Source of the DNA: a virus
Virus record (IMG/VR): IMGVR_UViG_3300036820_000641
Span: 1 to 37,061 of that record
Direction: 5' to 3' (one strand)
Length of the DNA stretch: 37,061 bases
Below, piece after piece: positions 29,091 through 37,061 of this stretch. Below the pieces are notes generated by a model. That model searched no databases. It was not told the origin of the DNA and saw nothing but the letters and a program-made list of their open reading frames with translations. Position numbers and translations under genes: made by a program. Within the stretch, counting starts at the first letter, position 1. Every line of letters begins with the position of its first letter.

Positions 29091-29587
29091 GCGGCGTTCT
29101 CCTCTGCCTTTTGCGGATACGTCTCATAGAAGAACGTTTCCGTCTGGTGCATCTTCACGCCGATGGAGCTGAGCGCCCCGTCCGAGAGGTTCGCCTTCTT
29201 CAGCGCTTGTTTGTCCACCTCCTGTTTTGTGCGGATGAAAATTGTCGGGATAACGCCGAGAACCTTCTCCCAATTCCAGCCCTTCAGCAAACGAAGCGAA
29301 GGCGCGGAGATCTTGATACCCGCGCGACCGAACCGCAGCTCGATGGACTTCTTCTTCTTTTCGATCTCCGAGCGGTTGGCCCGGTAATACAGCTCCATCT
29401 GCTCGGCGAGAAGATCGCGCCGTTCGACCAGCACCTTCGTCCGGGCGGCGAATTTCCCCTCTGCCGTGATGATGTCGTTCTGACGGTCCACGTCGGCGCG
29501 CGCCACCTGCGCGTTGATCAGGCCGATCTCGCGCAGTGCGCCGTCGAACTCGCCGAGATTCTGAATGACGGAAAGCGGTTTGTTCAC
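29087..29587 (-). CDS. gam: Gam-like host-nuclease inhibitor
   Basis: The 166-residue protein fits the Mu Gam family (Ku-like DNA-end binder): ALREIGLINAQVARADVDRQ, then an extended helix with GKFAARTKVLVERRDLLAE and YYRANRSEIEKKKKSIELRF, then the strand-loop SLRLLKGWNWEKVLGVIPTIFIR. Gam coats double-stranded ends and protects phage DNA from RecBCD-type nucleases. It follows the MuB-like gene with ATGA overlap, in the same early operon. The GRAGIKISAPSL insert between helix and strand is as in relatives. Length is right. Confidence 0.82.
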   Translation of the reverse strand: MNKPLSVIQNLGEFDGALREIGLINAQVARADVDRQNDIITAEGKFAARTKVLVERRDLLAEQMELYYRANRSEIEKKKKSIELRFGRAGIKISAPSLRLLKGWNWEKVLGVIPTIFIRTKQEVDKQALKKANLSDGALSSIGVKMHQTETFFYETYPQKAEENAA

Positions 29588-30702
29588 GCCGCCCTCCGCG
29601 CTGGAGCTTCACCCGGCAGACTGTCAACGATCTCCCGCGTGATCCGTTCACCGGCCGTCGCGCCGTTCGCATACAGCCGCACCATGGCGCGGATACACAT
29701 GGCGTTGATGACCAGCGGACGTCCGAGCGGCGGCCGGCGTCCCTGACGGAAGCGTTCGAGGAAAGCGGCGAGTCCCGCGGGATCGAAAAGCTTCTCGATG
29801 GACGATCCCGCGCGCTGCAGTTTGAACTGCAGGTATTCGTCAACGGGAACGGGCGGAACTTCCACCGTGCGGATGCGATTGCCGATCTCCGGAAATTCCG
29901 AGAGCTTCGTCTTGAGCGTGGGCAGACCGATGAGGATGATGGCCAGCAGCCGGAAGCGGCCGATCTTCTCCTCGAAGAACGTTTTCAATTGGCGCAGCAC
30001 GGACTGCGAACAGAAGTGCGCGTCGTCGATGTAGAGGACGGCCTTGCGGTCATTCTGCGCGGTGCGAATGTTACGCAGAGCGGTCGAGAGCTGGCGTCCG
30101 CGATCCTCCGCATTGGCCTTGATGCTGATGTCTTCGCCGGAGAGGCCGTAGATGAGCGTGCGGGCAAGATGCTCCGGTGTCAGCTTTTCGCGCGACTTCA
30201 CGTTCGGTTTGCAGATCACCGTGTCTTCGCGATTGCCGTAGACGGCTTCGATGCCGTCCCAGATGGTCGTTTTGCCCGATCCGCTTTCGGCGATGACAGC
30301 GAGGAAGCCGCGCTGCTCGATGGTGTCCTTGATGGCCTGTTCGACGGCGTCGTAGCCGCGGAAGTGCATGACGTCGTCGTCGGTTTCAACGTCGTTGATG
30401 AACGGGTTGGAGCGCAACCCGAAGAGCTGCATTACCGATCTGTCAAGCTGCATGAGGTCAATCTCCTGAAGTGGTTCCGTTTGCGGTTGCGGTCCTTCCC
30501 GGAGCGCGGGGAAATCGATGTGAATTTTGGAGTCGTACGAGAGCGCGTGAATGATCTTGCGCTTGAGTTCCGCGACGGCGACGCGCGCGGGCCATTCGCC
30601 GCGATCCACGAGCCTGTGAATGGCGGTCTTGGAGATCCCGACCATCATTCCGAGACGGCGCGTGGAGACTTTGCGGGAGTCCATTGCCTGCTTGACGGTC
30701 AT
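29584..30702 (-). CDS. MuB-like AAA+ transposition ATPase with N-terminal HTH
   Basis: The 372-residue protein starts with an HTH domain (STRRLGMMVGISKTAIHRLV, ~13-32) and continues with an AAA+ core: Walker A AESGSGKTT at 138-146, Walker B AVLYIDDAHF at 221-230, then FRLLAIILIGLP (sensor-1 region) and EIGNRIRTVEVPP (~265-277) with arginines typical of the arginine finger region. MuB recruits target DNA and activates the transposase. This HTH-plus-AAA layout is also common in MuB homologues of other transposable phages. It is downstream of the transposase gene. The ATG overlaps the previous stop (ATGA). It would act with the transposase at target capture. Confidence 0.85.
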   Translation of the reverse strand: MTVKQAMDSRKVSTRRLGMMVGISKTAIHRLVDRGEWPARVAVAELKRKIIHALSYDSKIHIDFPALREGPQPQTEPLQEIDLMQLDRSVMQLFGLRSNPFINDVETDDDVMHFRGYDAVEQAIKDTIEQRGFLAVIAESGSGKTTIWDGIEAVYGNREDTVICKPNVKSREKLTPEHLARTLIYGLSGEDISIKANAEDRGRQLSTALRNIRTAQNDRKAVLYIDDAHFCSQSVLRQLKTFFEEKIGRFRLLAIILIGLPTLKTKLSEFPEIGNRIRTVEVPPVPVDEYLQFKLQRAGSSIEKLFDPAGLAAFLERFRQGRRPPLGRPLVINAMCIRAMVRLYANGATAGERITREIVDSLPGEAPARRAA

Positions 30703-31772: not shown

Positions 31773-33455
31773 TTACATCGCCTCCTTGCCGCGAAACTCC
31801 ACGACGCGTCCGGTAATCCCGCGCTGTATCCGATCGACGGCCGCATAGACTTCCGCTTCGGTGACCTGTTCGCCGAATGCGCCGTTGACGAACTCGGCCT
31901 CCGGTGCTGTGAGCGTTCGGCCGATCAGCTCCATCGCCATTTCCCGCGCCGCGATCCGCGTCATCACCGGCGCGGCCGGCTTCTCGATCTCGACGCCTTC
32001 ACCCGCGGTGGGAATGCCGACTTCCGGCGTGCGGTCCAGGTGGTAGCCGAAGGCCTCGACGCCCCGGCCGTCCACCAGCTCCTTCGCCGCGCGTTGCGCT
32101 TCGTGTGCAAAGGTGACAGCCGCCGTGTGTTTGACGCCTTTATATTCGACGCCGATGGTCGCGGCCGTCGCAGGAAATCCGAACTCGTCCAACTCGATCG
32201 GCGAGCACAGATGGACGGTCGCGTTCGGTTCCCCTTCCGCGCGCACCTGAATCTCGGGGAAGCTGAATGGGCTGTACTGCACTTCCACCCACGTGTTGGG
32301 CAGGAAGCATTCCGGCACCCTGTATTTCTGTGCCTTGAAGCGGACGATGCGCGAGCCGCCCACCTTGCAGCGTTGCGGCTCGGAGAGCGCGATGGCTTTG
32401 AACGTTTCGAAGTCGCACCGCAACTCGCGCAATTGCGATTCCGGACGCCGCCCGATGTACCAGGCCCACATCGTTGAGCGCTCCGATCCGTGGCGCGTGT
32501 GGCGCTGCACGCCGCAGTAGTGCGCGGCGAACTTGATCGCCCATTCGTTGAGCTGCTCGATCGACTGCGGCGGCTGCAGCCGAAGCCGCGTCTCGAAGTG
32601 AGCTTCCCACCAGTTGTGCGAGACCTCGACCGCGCCCTTGCTCCGCGCGCCTTCGCAGATGTTGAGATGAATGCCGAGGCGATTCATCAACGCCGCCGTC
32701 GCCCCGGCCTGCATCGCGGAGCCGCGATCCGCCATCAGGATCGACGGCACGCCGCGGAACGGATATTGCCGTGCGATCGATTCGCCATTGAGCTTCTTTT
32801 CTGACCAGGCATAATAAAGCCCTTCGAGAAGCGCCTGCACGGTCTCACCCGCGGAGACCGTGTAGTGGGCATAAAAGCAGCCCGTCGCATGATCGACAAC
32901 GATCATGCGAAGGATGCGCGGCACCCCAGCCGCGGGCAGTTTGTTTTTGTAAATCAGGTGCTCGTACATCGGGCGATTGTTCTCGACCTTCCAATTCACG
33001 GCCAGCGAGAAATCCACCTGGTGAACGTGGTTCGGTCCGAGCGATCGCAGTTCGATATGAGGTGTTGCGGCCGTCTGGTCGCGGCGACTGCCGGACTGCT
33101 CACGCAGCCAGCGGTTGTAGAGCGACGGGGAAACCTCCGGCGCCATGTCGTTCTTCACGGCGATCTCGATTGCATCCTTCGCGGGCATGACGATGCCTTT
33201 GCGAAGAGAGAGCGAGCTGGCCTGCACGGCCGCGATGACAGCCAATTGCTGATCGTCGATTCCTGCGCGTCGGCGTCCGCGATCGGAGCGCTCGTGCGAA
33301 CGGCAACCGACGCTGTTCAGCTTGCGGCTCAGCGTGGCCGGTGAGATTTGATAGAGCGAAAGAAACTCACGTTTCGCCGATGCCTTCGCGCGGCCTTGCA
33401 GGGCGGTGAGGTTGATGGCGAGTTCGTTGATCGCGGCGGCTGGGATCTCAGGCAT
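31773..33455 (-). CDS. MuA-like DDE transposase
   Basis: The 560-residue protein has an N-terminal DNA-binding region (STLxR-type helix near SPATLSRKLNSVG and DRGRRRAGID), an RNase H-like core with HQVDF (Asp148), ILMADRGSA (Asp243) and GAVEVSHNWWE (Glu277), then a C-terminal Mu-type beta barrel (VGGSRIVRFKAQKYRVPE, NTWVEVQYSPFS) and a tail helix. Asp243 to Glu277 spans 34 residues, the common rve spacing; MuA itself has about 55. It replicates and inserts the phage. It uses GGAG six bases before ATG. No other recombinase was found. Confidence 0.9.
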   Translation of the reverse strand: MPEIPAAAINELAINLTALQGRAKASAKREFLSLYQISPATLSRKLNSVGCRSHERSDRGRRRAGIDDQQLAVIAAVQASSLSLRKGIVMPAKDAIEIAVKNDMAPEVSPSLYNRWLREQSGSRRDQTAATPHIELRSLGPNHVHQVDFSLAVNWKVENNRPMYEHLIYKNKLPAAGVPRILRMIVVDHATGCFYAHYTVSAGETVQALLEGLYYAWSEKKLNGESIARQYPFRGVPSILMADRGSAMQAGATAALMNRLGIHLNICEGARSKGAVEVSHNWWEAHFETRLRLQPPQSIEQLNEWAIKFAAHYCGVQRHTRHGSERSTMWAWYIGRRPESQLRELRCDFETFKAIALSEPQRCKVGGSRIVRFKAQKYRVPECFLPNTWVEVQYSPFSFPEIQVRAEGEPNATVHLCSPIELDEFGFPATAATIGVEYKGVKHTAAVTFAHEAQRAAKELVDGRGVEAFGYHLDRTPEVGIPTAGEGVEIEKPAAPVMTRIAAREMAMELIGRTLTAPEAEFVNGAFGEQVTEAEVYAAVDRIQRGITGRVVEFRGKEAM

Positions 33456-33672: not shown

Positions 33673-33895
33673 GGGCGCCTTCAAGTTGCTGATGGATTTC
33701 GTCGATCCAAATGTCGCGTTCCCACTGCGAGAAGAACGGGCATGCAGCGCCGAGCGCCAGATCGACATCGATCTCCCGTTGGCCTTTCGTCGTGGCCAAA
33801 ACGCGCGCCACGGTTTCGCGGGAAATTCGGCGCACGGATTCCCGCCGCTCGACCTTCTCGTCTCGCCGCGCGGTAACGCCGTCAACAAAGTTCAA
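33665..33895 (-). CDS. Hypothetical early protein, 76 aa
   Basis: The likely start is TTG 33893-33895, overlapping the end of the preceding gene; an upstream ATG gives only antisense-like residues. The product has a basic middle (TARRDEKVERRESVRRISRE, then TVARVLATTKGQ) and an acid-aromatic end QWERDIWIDEIHQQLEGAHA. It is probably helical. No family is recognised. Start choice is uncertain. Confidence 0.45.
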   Translation of the reverse strand: MNFVDGVTARRDEKVERRESVRRISRETVARVLATTKGQREIDVDLALGAACPFFSQWERDIWIDEIHQQLEGAHA

Positions 33896-34142
33896 GCTGC
33901 ACCGCCTTTCGGCCTTCGGCTTCAGTGACAGCGCGAACCGCCGCGGCAACCGCAATCGCGTATTCGAGCGTCGGATGAATTTGGTTCCTGCGCAGACCTT
34001 CGTGCCAGGTGCGCCAGACGTCCTTCTGGAGCGACGGCGGCACCATCGCCCAGTGCTCGTAGCACATCAGGAACTTGACCAGGATCAGGCGACGGCAGCT
34101 CTCGGCGTTGCAGGTGTGCTTCAGAAGCGGAGGCGCGATCAT
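33882..34142 (-). CDS. Small early protein with Cys/His pattern, 86 aa
   Basis: ATG 34140-34142 overlaps the stop of the XRE gene (ATGA); the longer upstream ORF is not supported. It contains KHTCNAESCRRLILVKFLMC and YEHWAMVPPSLQKDVWRTW, a pattern (C-x4-C-x-n-C-x2-HW-x-VP-x2-L-x2-VW) seen in small phage proteins of unknown function. The Cys/His set probably binds zinc. The C-terminal helix is Ala-rich (AIAVAAAVRAVTEAEGRK). Role unknown. Confidence 0.6.
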   Translation of the reverse strand: MIAPPLLKHTCNAESCRRLILVKFLMCYEHWAMVPPSLQKDVWRTWHEGLRRNQIHPTLEYAIAVAAAVRAVTEAEGRKAVQLELC

Positions 34143-34684
34143 TCGGACGGCTCGCTGCCGGACACACTCATCGAATCCTGTAATTCCACGTCCTCCATAT
34201 CGCAGCCGGGCGTCTGACAAACAAGCCCGCGTTCCCCGCTGTCCGGGCCGGCGAAGTGCGCCAGAGTGTGGCCGCAGGACGTGCAGGCGTTTTCTTCAGG
34301 CGACGCCGCTGGCATAAAGCTGCCGTTGTTCTCCGCTCCCTCTTGTGCCAGTTCGAGACGCGCTAGAAGGTCAGTTACCCGACGGTGGAAACGCAGACAG
34401 TCTTCGGCCACCTGTTTGAGTTCGTGGGCAAGGACATCGTTCGGCGTAAGGCGTGGTCCGGATGGCATATCCAGCGAGACCGGCAGCAGAGCGCCGACTT
34501 CGCTCTCAAAGACCGTACCGACAGATAAGCGATGAAGAGCGATAAGAACGGTCAGGCTCGGCACATTGTGCCCCTTCTCATATCTGCTGATCATTGAGTG
34601 GCGGAGGCCAAGGCGGCCGCCAAAGACCGTTCCTGACTCGCCCCGCTCTTTGCGCATCGCTCGAATTAATTCGGGAAGCGTCAT
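34139..34684 (-). CDS. XRE-type HTH regulator with C-terminal zinc ribbon
   Basis: Residues 1-60 form an HTH: RAMRKERGESGTVFGGRLG, then LRHSMISRYEKGHNVPS, matching the XRE fold. The same unusual GESGTVFG-x-R-x-GLRH-x2-IS-x-YE-x-G signature occurs in the repressor candidate at 36.2 kb, so the two are paralogues. The C-terminal part has CTSCGH and CQTPGC, a zinc ribbon absent from the other. It may act as an early regulator or antirepressor. The start overlaps the neighbour by ATGA and it is not autonomous in position. Confidence 0.72.
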   Translation of the reverse strand: MTLPELIRAMRKERGESGTVFGGRLGLRHSMISRYEKGHNVPSLTVLIALHRLSVGTVFESEVGALLPVSLDMPSGPRLTPNDVLAHELKQVAEDCLRFHRRVTDLLARLELAQEGAENNGSFMPAASPEENACTSCGHTLAHFAGPDSGERGLVCQTPGCDMEDVELQDSMSVSGSEPSE

Positions 34685-35556
34685 TTCTTCCCCTTCTGTT
34701 GGTACTCGGAGAGGAGATTGCGGCTCGTATCGGGCTCGTTATTCAGCCACAGTGCGTCGGAGGGGTCGGGCAGGTTGGCCCCGCGCCCAAAGTTCGCCCT
34801 CGCGTCATCCGCCACCTGCAGCAGCGAACGGTAGAGGTATTCGCACAGGCCGATGTAGCGCGCTTCGTTTTCGGGCGACAGTTCGCGTTCGCGGACCTTG
34901 TTCAGCAGCGACATTCCGAAGTCCCAGTTGCTCTGGACTCGGAGGAGAACCTGATGGTCTTCGTCGGCGTCGGCAAAGGCTTTCGGCGAGAGCGCCTCGC
35001 GCAGCTTGCGGTTCGCTTCCGCCGCGCCCTTCCGGGCGTTGTCGCGTTCGGTGATGGCTTTGGTCTTCTCGACGTCGGCAGTCAGCGCAGACGCCTCTGC
35101 GTCTTTGGCCTGCTTGATCAGCGCCTTTACCGCCTGCTGGAGGCGTGGGGCGTTGGTGGTCGTGAGAGGGATCTTCTCGCCGCCGATATCGAGCCCGTCC
35201 TTATCAACCTGTTCGGCTACCGCAATGAGGCTATTGGCGGAGATTCCTGTGAGGCGTGCGAGGTCGAAGATCTTGTCGCCGAATGTGGAGTAGTTGTCGA
35301 TGATTTGATCGGCGGTCTTGTGATCGATGCCCAGATGCAGGATGCAGAATTTATGCCAGTCCATGCCGAGGTCACGGTAGATCTTCGCGTCCTTTATGTG
35401 TTTCAACGCGGCGGCATCGGCAGCATCGACCATCGCTTTCGCCATGCGGATGCCCTGACTCCGGCCTATCCAGAGCTGTGCTCGCTCCCTCGCTTTGGCA
35501 GTTTCGACGGCGAGATGATCACCTGCAATCTGGAGAGTGTTTTTGCCTGAGCTCAT
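34681..35556 (-). CDS. Coiled-coil early protein, putative DNA-binding
   Basis: A 291-residue protein with no recognised family. Its N-terminal half is helical (DHLAVETAKARERAQLW, MAKAMVDAADAAALKH) and contains DHKTADQIIDNYSTFGDKIF with an ISANSLIAVAEQ helix, possibly an HTH-like segment. Residues ~135-195 are a heptad-rich coiled coil (QAVKALIKQAKDAEASALTA and EKTKAITERDNARKGAAEA). The C-terminus includes LSPENEARYIGLCEYLYRSLL. It is positioned early, just past twin palindromes at 35.57-35.65 kb. It could be a replication or regulatory factor; that is inference. Confidence 0.58.
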   Translation of the reverse strand: MSSGKNTLQIAGDHLAVETAKARERAQLWIGRSQGIRMAKAMVDAADAAALKHIKDAKIYRDLGMDWHKFCILHLGIDHKTADQIIDNYSTFGDKIFDLARLTGISANSLIAVAEQVDKDGLDIGGEKIPLTTTNAPRLQQAVKALIKQAKDAEASALTADVEKTKAITERDNARKGAAEANRKLREALSPKAFADADEDHQVLLRVQSNWDFGMSLLNKVRERELSPENEARYIGLCEYLYRSLLQVADDARANFGRGANLPDPSDALWLNNEPDTSRNLLSEYQQKGKK

Positions 35557-35570
35557 CTAAAATCTCTTTC

Positions 35571-35587
35571 TGGGGAGGACTTCCCCA
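35571..35587. promoter_or_regulatory. Imperfect palindrome TGGGGAGGACTTCCCCA
   Basis: A 17-bp near-palindrome upstream of the 34681-35556 gene, about 64 bp (six helix turns) from a perfect 18-bp version. Paired sites at this spacing fit an operator. The adjacent winged-helix or Cro-like proteins are candidate binders. Confidence 0.55.
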
Positions 35588-35634
35588 AGTCGGCGTTCGG
35601 AAACGTTGAGAAATAAGGACATATGCAGTGAATG

Positions 35635-35652
35635 TTGGGGAGGCCTCCCCAA
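35635..35652. promoter_or_regulatory. Perfect 18-bp palindrome TTGGGGAGGCCTCCCCAA
   Basis: An exact palindrome between the winged-helix gene and the next early gene. It shares TGGGGAGG-x-CT-x-CCCCA with the site at 35571-35587. Too short and loopless for a good terminator; best read as a protein-binding site. Confidence 0.6.
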
Positions 35653-35654
35653 AA

Positions 35655-35885
35655 TCAGAACCCCCTCAGGTCGGGAGCGAAGTCCAGGACCTTGCGCCCG
35701 AGGACATATACCGGATGCCCGGTTTCACTCACCTTTTCGAGCCAGCCGGCGCGGGAGAGATAAGTCAGATATCGGGACGCGCTGGCCTTGTCCCAACCGG
35801 GCGCGCGCGAGAGCAGCGCTACCGTCATGCGGCCCATCTTGTGGGTCTTCTCGACTGCGAAAAGCGCCCGCTCAACGGCCTGCAT
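35655..35885 (-). CDS. Winged-helix DNA-binding protein, 76 aa
   Basis: ATG 35883-35885, preceded by AAAGGAG ten bases upstream inside the end of the previous gene, gives 76 residues. The pattern is a winged helix: MQAVERALFAVEKTHK, then MTVALLSRAPGWDKASASRY (HTH) and LSRAGWLEKVSETGHPVYVLG (wing). IclR/MarR-type small regulators look alike. It directly precedes the two palindromes and may bind them. The gene is the second of the early operon. Confidence 0.68.
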   Translation of the reverse strand: MQAVERALFAVEKTHKMGRMTVALLSRAPGWDKASASRYLTYLSRAGWLEKVSETGHPVYVLGRKVLDFAPDLRGF

Positions 35886-36114
35886 TGAAGATGGGCTCCT
35901 TTCCATTGAAACTCTGGGCCGCGATTGAACACCCGGTGAGTTGCTCGATGGCTTCGCGTAACGGGGCCGCTTTTCGTTGGCCCGAAAGAATGTAGCGAAG
36001 ATAGCGGGTGGAAATGTTGAGCTTTTCTGCCAGACTGACTTGTGTGAGGCCGTTCCTGAGGAGCGCGATTTTGAAATCGACTATCGTGCTACCCTCACGG
36101 GTTGTTCCTGACAT
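35872..36114 (-). CDS. Ner/Cro-like HTH protein, 80 aa
   Basis: An 80-residue HTH protein: FKIALLRNGLTQVSLAEKLN, then ISTRYLRYILSGQRKA, the lambda-Cro/XRE pattern. As the first leftward gene, divergent from the repressor, it fits the position of Mu ner, which shuts down early transcription. It overlaps the next gene by 14 bases. The annotated ATG lies only six bases beyond the -10-like hexamer, so the transcript may be nearly leaderless or start farther in. The sequence is not close to Mu Ner itself. Confidence 0.72.
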   Translation of the reverse strand: MSGTTREGSTIVDFKIALLRNGLTQVSLAEKLNISTRYLRYILSGQRKAAPLREAIEQLTGCSIAAQSFNGKEPIFNAGR

Positions 36115-36120
36115 GGAACG

Positions 36121-36149
36121 ATTGTCTACTTACAGACATTAAAAGTCAA
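36121..36149 (-). promoter_or_regulatory. Early promoter, leftward, with operator-like repeats
   Basis: On the minus strand TTGACT (36144-36149), a 17-base spacer and GACAAT (36121-36126) form a good sigma-70-type promoter toward the early genes. Around it are three TGTCT/AGTCT-type half-sites (near 36122-36128, 36133-36140 and 36154-36160), consistent with repressor and Ner binding between the divergent genes. No comparable plus-strand promoter is obvious. Confidence 0.6.
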
Positions 36150-36162
36150 GGCATAGACTACA

Positions 36163-36687
36163 TTGAATAGCTCCTTGGATTCGGCTATCCGGATGATCCG
36201 CAAACGGCTCGGGGAAACCGGAACCGTTTTTGGCGCGCGTTTCGGCCTCCGACATAACACGATCAGTCAGTACGAATCAGGGAAGGCGACGCCCAGCACG
36301 GGTATTCTTCTAAAGCTGTACCGGCTCGCCGAAACGGAAGCGGAGAAGCGCCCCCTTTTGGCGGAGTTGGGCGACTCGGCTGAGGCCCTGATCTCGCGAG
36401 AGCAGGACTTGGAGTCGATCGCGGGAAAGGTGAAGAAAGAGTTTGACGCACTGACAGGGGCTCGTGCCTCAAATCCGAACGCACGGAAGCGCTTCTATGA
36501 CCTGATCCTCGCCGTGCTTCGACAGCCTGACGTCCCTCTGTGGCTGCTGGATCTGATCGATCTATGGCTTCAGGTCCGGGATGAGGCCGATGCGCGCCAG
36601 ACGTTCGAAGAAGGTTTCAGTGGGCTTTGGTTGAGAGTCTCAAAACTGAAACGCGAAAAACACCTCTCGAAATCCAGCGCGAATTAG
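36163..36687 (+). CDS. XRE-type regulator, probable phage repressor, 174 aa
   Basis: The only clear phage gene on the plus strand, divergent from the early operon. It starts with TTG 36163-36165. The N-terminal HTH is IRMIRKRLGETGTVFGARFG, then LRHNTISQYESGKATPS. The C-terminal ~100 residues are helical with no LexA/S24 peptidase motif, so RecA-type self-cleavage is unlikely. The second half includes FYDLILAVLRQPDVPLWLLD. It is paralogous to the HTH protein at 34139-34684. Genetic position and direction make it the c-type repressor. Induction mechanism is unknown. Confidence 0.75.
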   Translation: MNSSLDSAIRMIRKRLGETGTVFGARFGLRHNTISQYESGKATPSTGILLKLYRLAETEAEKRPLLAELGDSAEALISREQDLESIAGKVKKEFDALTGARASNPNARKRFYDLILAVLRQPDVPLWLLDLIDLWLQVRDEADARQTFEEGFSGLWLRVSKLKREKHLSKSSAN

Positions 36688-36704: not shown

Positions 36705-37061
36705 ATGATGATTTGCACTCGTTGCGGCAACGCTGGCGAGACCGGCCTGTTTAAGAGGAAAGGCAGCGGGTTTATAGAACTGCTGCTTTGGCTCTGCGGC
36801 ATCATCCCCGGTTTGATCTATCACCTTTGGAGAAACGGTTCAAGCGGCCGGCGCTGCCCGGCCTGCGGTTCATCTGAGATTGTTCCTTTTGCCAGCCCTG
36901 TTGGCCGCGAGCTTCAGCAGCGTTTTGGCGTCACTGAGACGGTAATCAAAAAGAAGGCTGCCGCCCAAAGCTCCGATCTTCGGAACGGCTATATTGCGCT
37001 CGCCGTTATCGCTTGTATCTTCGTCGCTGTTCTCCTGACCGTGAACGCGTTTAGTCATTAG
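36705..37061 (+). CDS. Zinc-ribbon membrane protein, 118 aa
   Basis: With ATG 36705-36707 (no strong ribosome binding site), the protein begins MMICTRCGNAGETGLFKRKG, then SGFIELLLWLCGIIPGLIYH, a membrane helix, then RRCPACGSSEIVPFASPVG, and ends with a second helix (GYIALAVIACIFVAVLLTV). Two CxxC knuckles on each side of a hydrophobic hairpin give a folded zinc site at the membrane. Such zinc-ribbon membrane proteins are known in bacteria and phages. Located beyond the repressor, it may be an exclusion/moron gene or host flank. The window ends with its stop codon. The function is not proven. Confidence 0.62.
   Translation: MMICTRCGNAGETGLFKRKGSGFIELLLWLCGIIPGLIYHLWRNGSSGRRCPACGSSEIVPFASPVGRELQQRFGVTETVIKKKAAAQSSDLRNGYIALAVIACIFVAVLLTVNAFSH

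Follow-up and report, generated by a model that had tools for sequence, protein, structure and literature searches.

A pair of regulators sharing an uncommon sequence signature was found in the early region of a Mu-like transposable phage with a B3-like gene order, the 37,061-base IMG/VR virus record IMGVR_UViG_3300036820_000641 (here called the window, at its full length). One of them, HTH2 (36163 to 36687, plus strand; an open reading frame [ORF] of 174 amino acids [aa] with a TTG start), is the lysogeny repressor candidate. The other, HTH1 (34139 to 34684, minus strand; an ORF of 181 aa), lies opposite it among the early genes, in agreement with an earlier note on this DNA that had placed the pair across the early operon. 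Both contain a Cro/C1-type helix-turn-helix (HTH) domain and pass the Pfam model HTH_3 (PF01381; gathering cut-off, 23), HTH1 with 28.9 bits and HTH2 with 25.7 bits. We tentatively favor the reading, to which we give somewhat less than an even chance, that this B3-like transposable phage has in HTH1 an accessory early regulator of Cro-like type, which either derives from the DNA-binding domain of the repressor or is matched to it. It is plausible that the two proteins share operators, the candidates for which lie between 36104 and 36159. The pair is unusual but represents a variant of a familiar type of switch.

In the pairwise alignment that the earlier note had suggested, residues 2 to 54 of HTH1 and 4 to 56 of HTH2 are identical at 28 of 53 positions (53%; BLASTP, E 2e-17 in a single comparison), and past the HTH BLASTP detected no similarity, i.e., no homologous C-terminal part. 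The signature, GTVFG-x-R-x-GLRH, occurs as GTVFGGRLGLRH in HTH1 (34598 to 34633, minus strand) and as GTVFGARFGLRH in HTH2 (36220 to 36255, plus strand). These are the 2 matches of the back-translated pattern in the window, and 100 shuffles gave a mean and a maximum of 0. It was found in no stretch of the IMG/VR scan, which may omit records closely resembling the window, and in none of 200 genomes of the bacterial order of G001, the genome that holds the single locus retrieved by the transposase search of bacterial genome contigs. The claim that the regulators share an uncommon motif is thus upheld, and the signature appears nearly private to this phage within the scans made. With 10 of 12 signature positions identical, HTH1 and HTH2 come top of the 210 pairs formed by 21 Cro/C1 domains (runner-up, 9/12). 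Within the pair itself the identities are not significantly clustered, as a 12-column stretch with at least 10 identities arose in 2716 of 20000 shuffles. In HTH2 the signature takes in helix 2 and the turn and reaches one residue into helix 3, so by the structure model it is not the recognition helix.

HTH2 carries its HTH at residues ~5 to 57, followed by a C-terminal part that is all-helical in an AlphaFold2 model. The model was built from 3 rows, HTH2 and the divergent repressor candidates of two related loci, L007 and L008, which stand at the equivalent position and are 35% and 34% identical to HTH2 over ~160 residues. Residues 11 to 70 are modeled in blocks at pLDDT 87 to 94 and the C-terminal part at lower values, with helix 2 at residues 20 to 25 and helix 3 at 31 to 38. 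Foldseek searches of PDB and BFVD returned nothing at E <=0.001; the HTH superposes on that of P22 c2 and on similar domains (P22 c2, rmsd 1.3 over 52 columns, E 0.61). Sequence searches with HTH2 retrieved 2 loci, 1 record (28.5% identity over 71% of the query), 3 records, and 3 of 398 genomes, and, save for the 28.5%-identity record, the matches were restricted to the HTH or slightly beyond. A profile made from four HTHs retrieved 6 viral loci, among which L007, L008, and L003 were recovered again. The repressor candidates of L007 (1262 to 1948, minus strand) and L008 (347 to 1078, minus strand) end in C...CPHC and C...CPYC, respectively, which are absent from HTH2; their cysteine spacing differs from the C-x2-C-x18-C-x4-C of HTH1. 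Just 3' of the repressor, 36705 to 37061 (plus strand) encodes a small protein with two CxxC pairs and hydrophobic stretches, possibly a membrane protein, whose scores with the LITAF-like and Pmp3 models are under the cut-offs of those models.

We built a tree of Cro/C1 domains from 21 rows (25 domain rows, minus 6, plus the 2 window domains) and 56 columns. The rows left out were the duplicates L057, L058, and L060 (equal to L007, L008, and L003) and L045, L052, and L055 (domain E >5e-3); the domains of L065 to L067 were found later and stand outside the tree. With all columns, the tree joins HTH1 to HTH2 as its sister (98/94) and unites the two with the repressor candidates of L007 and L008 (87/89); the program flags these bootstraps as rough. 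Codons are shared at 11 of the 28 identical residues, compared with 11.4 expected from codon usage, so that synonymous sites have become randomized. Recent gene conversion was rejected on these figures, and any duplication or exchange would therefore be old. Two histories fit: selection may have preserved the signature in HTH1 as an old duplicate of a repressor HTH, or HTH1 may be an HTH that was acquired and gained the signature by convergence or transfer.

The switch region between the repressor and the Ner-like gene contains an early promoter candidate, TTGACT-17-GACAAT (36121 to 36149, minus strand), and three spaced palindromes, which are candidate operators for both HTH1 and HTH2. O1, TGTCT-N6-AGACA (36123 to 36138), lies within the promoter, with its center at promoter position 19.5; O2, AGTCAAGGCATAGACT (36144 to 36159; 6 of 8 pairs), lies over the -35 element, 21 bp from O1; and O3, GTTCC-N6-GGAAC (36104 to 36119), overlies the start codon of Ner, at 19 bp from O1. 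By pattern count, O1 (1 match, 0.59 expected) and O3 (2 matches, 1.30 expected) are within chance, and the case for operators rests on position. It is notable that 76 bp hold two perfect 5-6-5 palindromes, when the whole window has 59. Moreover, the promoter candidates of L007 (TTGAAA-17-CATAAT, 1965 to 1993) and L008 (TTGACC-17-TAGAAT, 1100 to 1128) hold different palindromes at an identical offset, so that a palindrome centered 19.5 from the first base of the -35 element was seen in 3 of 3 phages examined, with a different sequence in each.

Several observations weigh against kinship of the two regulators and against common operators. The earlier note had spoken of a shared recognition region; this holds for helix 2 and the turn but not for helix 3 itself, which is HNTISQYE in HTH2 and HSMISRYE in HTH1 (5/8 identical). 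The 3 differing positions of the 8 include two of what we take to be the four main base-reading positions. When the 12 signature columns were removed from the alignment, HTH1 and HTH2 paired in 0% of 200 bootstrap trees, HTH2 joined L007 and L008 (88/94), and HTH1 was left unplaced. Even with all columns, grouping HTH2 with L007 and L008 to the exclusion of HTH1 costs 4.20 in log-likelihood and is not rejected (p-AU 0.34). Outside the signature, HTH1 has 20/39 identities with the HTH of a Leptospira plasmid protein, 18/39 with HTH2, and 44% with L007, and HTH2 has 23/39 with L008. The note's claim of paralogy is therefore sustained in part: the two domains are not placed in distant families, and without the signature columns the best tree that pairs them is just 0.46 lower in log-likelihood (p-AU 0.47), but the paralogy rests on the signature, because the pairing is lost once its columns are removed. 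As for the sites, the cI-like proteins of two viral contigs, L003 (RHNTISQYE) and L004 (KHNTISQYE), align with nearly the recognition helix of HTH2, and by eye TTCAT-N5-ATGAA stands beside their genes (L003, 5850 to 5864; L004, 5849 to 5863). This site was not found at the switch of the window; therefore, a common recognition helix need not mean a common site, or O1 is not the site of the repressor. Finally, the available part of a study of phiKO2 reports that, of the operators occupied by the repressor CB, Cro bound a single one (PMC4997575), and related switch proteins can therefore differ in their set of sites.

The early genes follow one another on the minus strand in the order Ner-like, winged HTH, p300, HTH1, 112-aa protein, transposase A, and transposition protein B, divergent from the repressor as in B3-like and Mu-like early switches. 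The Ner-like gene (35872 to 36114; phrog_1468, transcriptional repressor, E 3.7e-10), whose product is 34% identical over 53 aa to that of the gene at the equivalent place in L007, comes first, the place of a Cro-type gene, which HTH1 thus does not occupy. It is followed by a small winged-HTH gene of IclR/MarR-like type (35655 to 35906; PF09339, 27.3 bits, cut-off 22), also recognized among related loci, and by p300, which encodes a conserved protein of ~300 aa (34681 to 35556; phrog_4623, E 7.4e-7) with homologues in L005, L007, and L008. HTH1 is the fourth gene, and because its start overlaps the end of p300 by 4 bases (34681 to 34684), it is probably cotranscribed and translationally coupled with p300. 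The fifth encodes a 112-aa protein with a C/C/C/H pattern discerned by eye (33882 to 34220; phrog_18063, E 1.7e-13) and a relative in L006 (42% over 73 aa). Neither p300 nor the 112-aa protein matched Pfam or PADLOC models. Transposase A (31773 to 33455; phrog_310, E 3.4e-40) and transposition protein B, an AAA ATPase (29584 to 30702; phrog_296, E 4.5e-28; PF13401, 50.5 bits), complete the order. At E 1e-20 or better the transposase matched 58 phage records, 51 of them named Pseudomonas phages and all at <60% identity.

HTH1 looks like an accessory insertion among these genes, because no Cro/C1 gene was found at that slot in related loci. Besides the window, the transposase searches gave 32 loci with a recognized transposase, 30 of which have an upstream marker (p300 in 19, the winged HTH in 11); they are not independent, as they include several close relatives and two loci from one genome. 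Between marker and transposase A, the four-HTH profile (E 0.01, ORFs of >=45 aa) detected no Cro/C1 ORF in these 30 loci; in the window it picked out HTH1, which is itself part of the profile. The gap between p300 and transposase A, which is <=23 bp in 17 of 19 loci and 115 and 206 bp in the others, measures 1226 bp in the window, where the two genes thus do not abut. In L005 (transposase 70% identical), a 68-aa gene is all that follows the p300 homologue; the L006 contig begins too near to judge HTH1. L007 and L008 have a CII-like gene (PF06892), and none was recognized in the window. Among the other loci, transposase similarity ends after 173 residues in L006, a metagenome contig (550 to 1077), and L039 (1648 to 2885) has short extra p300 and transposase pieces before a longer transposase ORF.

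The HTH of HTH1 (residues ~1 to 55) is followed by a linker and a C-terminal C-x2-C-x18-C-x4-C cluster. The earlier note had called the latter a zinc ribbon: the cluster, read from the sequence, is present, but no significant zinc family was found for it in Pfam or PHROG. Few relatives of HTH1 were retrieved. In viral contigs 10 stretches fit a pattern and 0 were confirmed, the phage collection gave none, and the plasmid collection gave one Leptospira plasmid record (40% over 72 residues; 49 bits, versus 62 for HTH2). At E <=1e-3, a sample of 398 genomes from the phylum of G001, the one phylum searched, gave a match in 1, with 29% identity. Matches to PADLOC models were limited to the HTH part and were taken as generic.

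Upstream of p300, twin palindromes lie at 35571 to 35587 and 35635 to 35652, with centers, by eye, 64.5 bp apart. A pattern derived from these very sites gave 4 strand matches where 0.06 were expected, and the pair is thus real. Pairs equally placed upstream of p300 but of different sequence occur in L007 (3233 to 3321) and L008 (2947 to 3032), with center spacings, by eye, of about 63 and 64.5 bp, and the core of the L007 palindrome has a further copy, GGTCAACTTGACC, at the Ner start (2002 to 2014). The suggestion that the twin palindromes are HTH1 sites is unlikely, because L007 and L008 keep the pair and HTH1 was not found there; going by this distribution, they probably serve the winged HTH, p300, or Ner rather than HTH1 or HTH2. 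In L008, a 300-base direct repeat carrying the winged-HTH gene (2282 to 2581 and 2652 to 2951; 98% identical, step 370) is followed by a palindrome that is also repeated. A box shared by L007 and L008 ahead of early genes, CTTTGTTTTCA / TTTGTTTTTCAG, was seen by eye between the palindrome pair and before the CII-like gene and is possibly a promoter or processing element.

If HTH1 is an accessory Cro-like regulator, it would have arisen as an old copy of a repressor HTH domain, or the signature would have been transferred to it or selected in it. HTH1 would be made only after the repressor releases the early promoter; in Fc02, the available part of one description has the early operon begin at ner and be turned on when the repressor is lifted (PMC9936078). 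It would then bind at least one of the candidate operators between the repressor and ner (36104 to 36159), and, once bound, may dampen the early promoter and contribute to turning the repressor off. The cysteine cluster could serve structure or dimerization, replacing the helical C-terminal part of the repressor. Operator competition is a reasonable proposal, and the sharing of sites has a precedent in Caulobacter, in which phage and host Cro/C1-type paralogues bind overlapping sites according to the accessible part of a preprint (PMC10462132).

A possible but rather doubtful alternative is that the phage acquired HTH1 as a Cro/C1-type regulator that has separate targets, at other phage or host promoters, the signature reflecting a common subfamily or convergence in helix 2 and the turn rather than a common operator. 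The separation of HTH1 from HTH2 once the signature columns are removed and the 3 of 8 helix 3 residues that differ both speak for it, as does the lack of a Cro/C1 gene at this slot in the 30 related loci, as expected of acquired cargo. Its weakness is that the signature was found in no other scanned viral contig, which makes chance reuse inside one 37-kb genome unlikely, and that no closer relative of HTH1 turned up in the 398 genomes of one phylum or in the phage or plasmid collections. Should HTH1 instead act at the protein level, as an antirepressor that pairs with HTH2 through the HTH domain and blocks operator binding, it would resemble Mor of TP901-1. In the available portion of that report, Mor is an HTH protein whose own strong DNA binding is undemonstrated and which disables CI through a complex (PMC11149083); likewise, the paralogues of Caulobacter and phage phiCbK form heteromers in two-hybrid tests, as far as the accessible preprint text goes (PMC10462132).

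We consider such an antirepressor unlikely. The AlphaFold2 model of HTH1 by itself (pLDDT 49.5) was unusable and offers no interface in its favor. In addition, helix 2 and the turn, where the signature is located, are on the DNA-facing side of the HTH fold, away from the presumed dimer surface. Less probable again is a near-neutral remnant or an MqsA-type antitoxin-like module with no role in the switch. A weak match of HTH1 to the MqsA-family model TIGR03830 (22.3 bits, E 8.8e-5) points that way, but the score is under the cut-off of 61.8, HTH2 scores 31.8, and the match covers the HTH part alone (67 to 109 of 127). The cysteines of HTH1 come after the HTH and not before it, the reverse of the domain order in MqsA; the two have in common an HTH that matches weakly and a cysteine cluster. 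The intact HTH1 ORF also argues against a remnant, and its neighbors, p300 and the 112-aa protein without Pfam or PADLOC match, do not favor such a module.

Leaving aside HTH1 and the 112-aa gene, the early region of the window resembles those of the Beetrevirus phages B3, PM105, and Fc02, which also have a divergent repressor and a small HTH/Ner-like gene, followed by a winged HTH gene, an ~300-aa gene, and transposases A and B. In B3 and PM105, unlike in the window, the interval from the winged-HTH or ~300-aa gene to transposase A yielded no Cro/C1 gene; the gene-order comparison covered 4 of the 58 transposase-matching phage records, B3 and PM105 among them. Like the lytic repressors Cro and Ner, HTH1 is an early Cro/C1-type protein beside a lysogeny repressor. 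Unlike them, it carries an extension with a cysteine cluster and is encoded in fourth place among the early genes, and the Ner-like gene fills the Cro/Ner place. Mor proteins of TP901-1 and phi13 are also HTH proteins that oppose CI, through a complex with it in the account available (PMC11149083). TgrL of phiCbK is an early phage Cro/C1-type paralogue whose targets are common with a resident family, but from what the available preprint text says (PMC10462132), the resident members are host proteins; here, the counterpart is the phage's own repressor. Among the titles and opening abstract lines listed from the literature searched, subscription papers being mostly outside it, no second repressor-like HTH protein with a cysteine cluster was described in transposable-phage early genes.

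A bolder version of the favored reading, to which we give very little credence, is that the phage split its repressor into two readers of one operator, with HTH1 as a metal-dependent competitor that tunes the choice between lysis and lysogeny. The early copy would then have kept the DNA-reading signature and lost the helical C-terminal part, and the cysteine cluster could sense metal or redox state. More generally, if HTH1 and HTH2 do read one operator, the phage would have built a competitor from the DNA-binding domain of its own repressor and placed it, along with Ner, in the gene set under the control of that repressor. The promoter palindromes of the three phages, which keep the same offset and differ in sequence, may be useful for mapping the switches of transposable phages, and the HTH1/HTH2 pair offers a compact test case of the extent to which proteins with a common helix-2/turn signature can be expected to have the same operator specificity.

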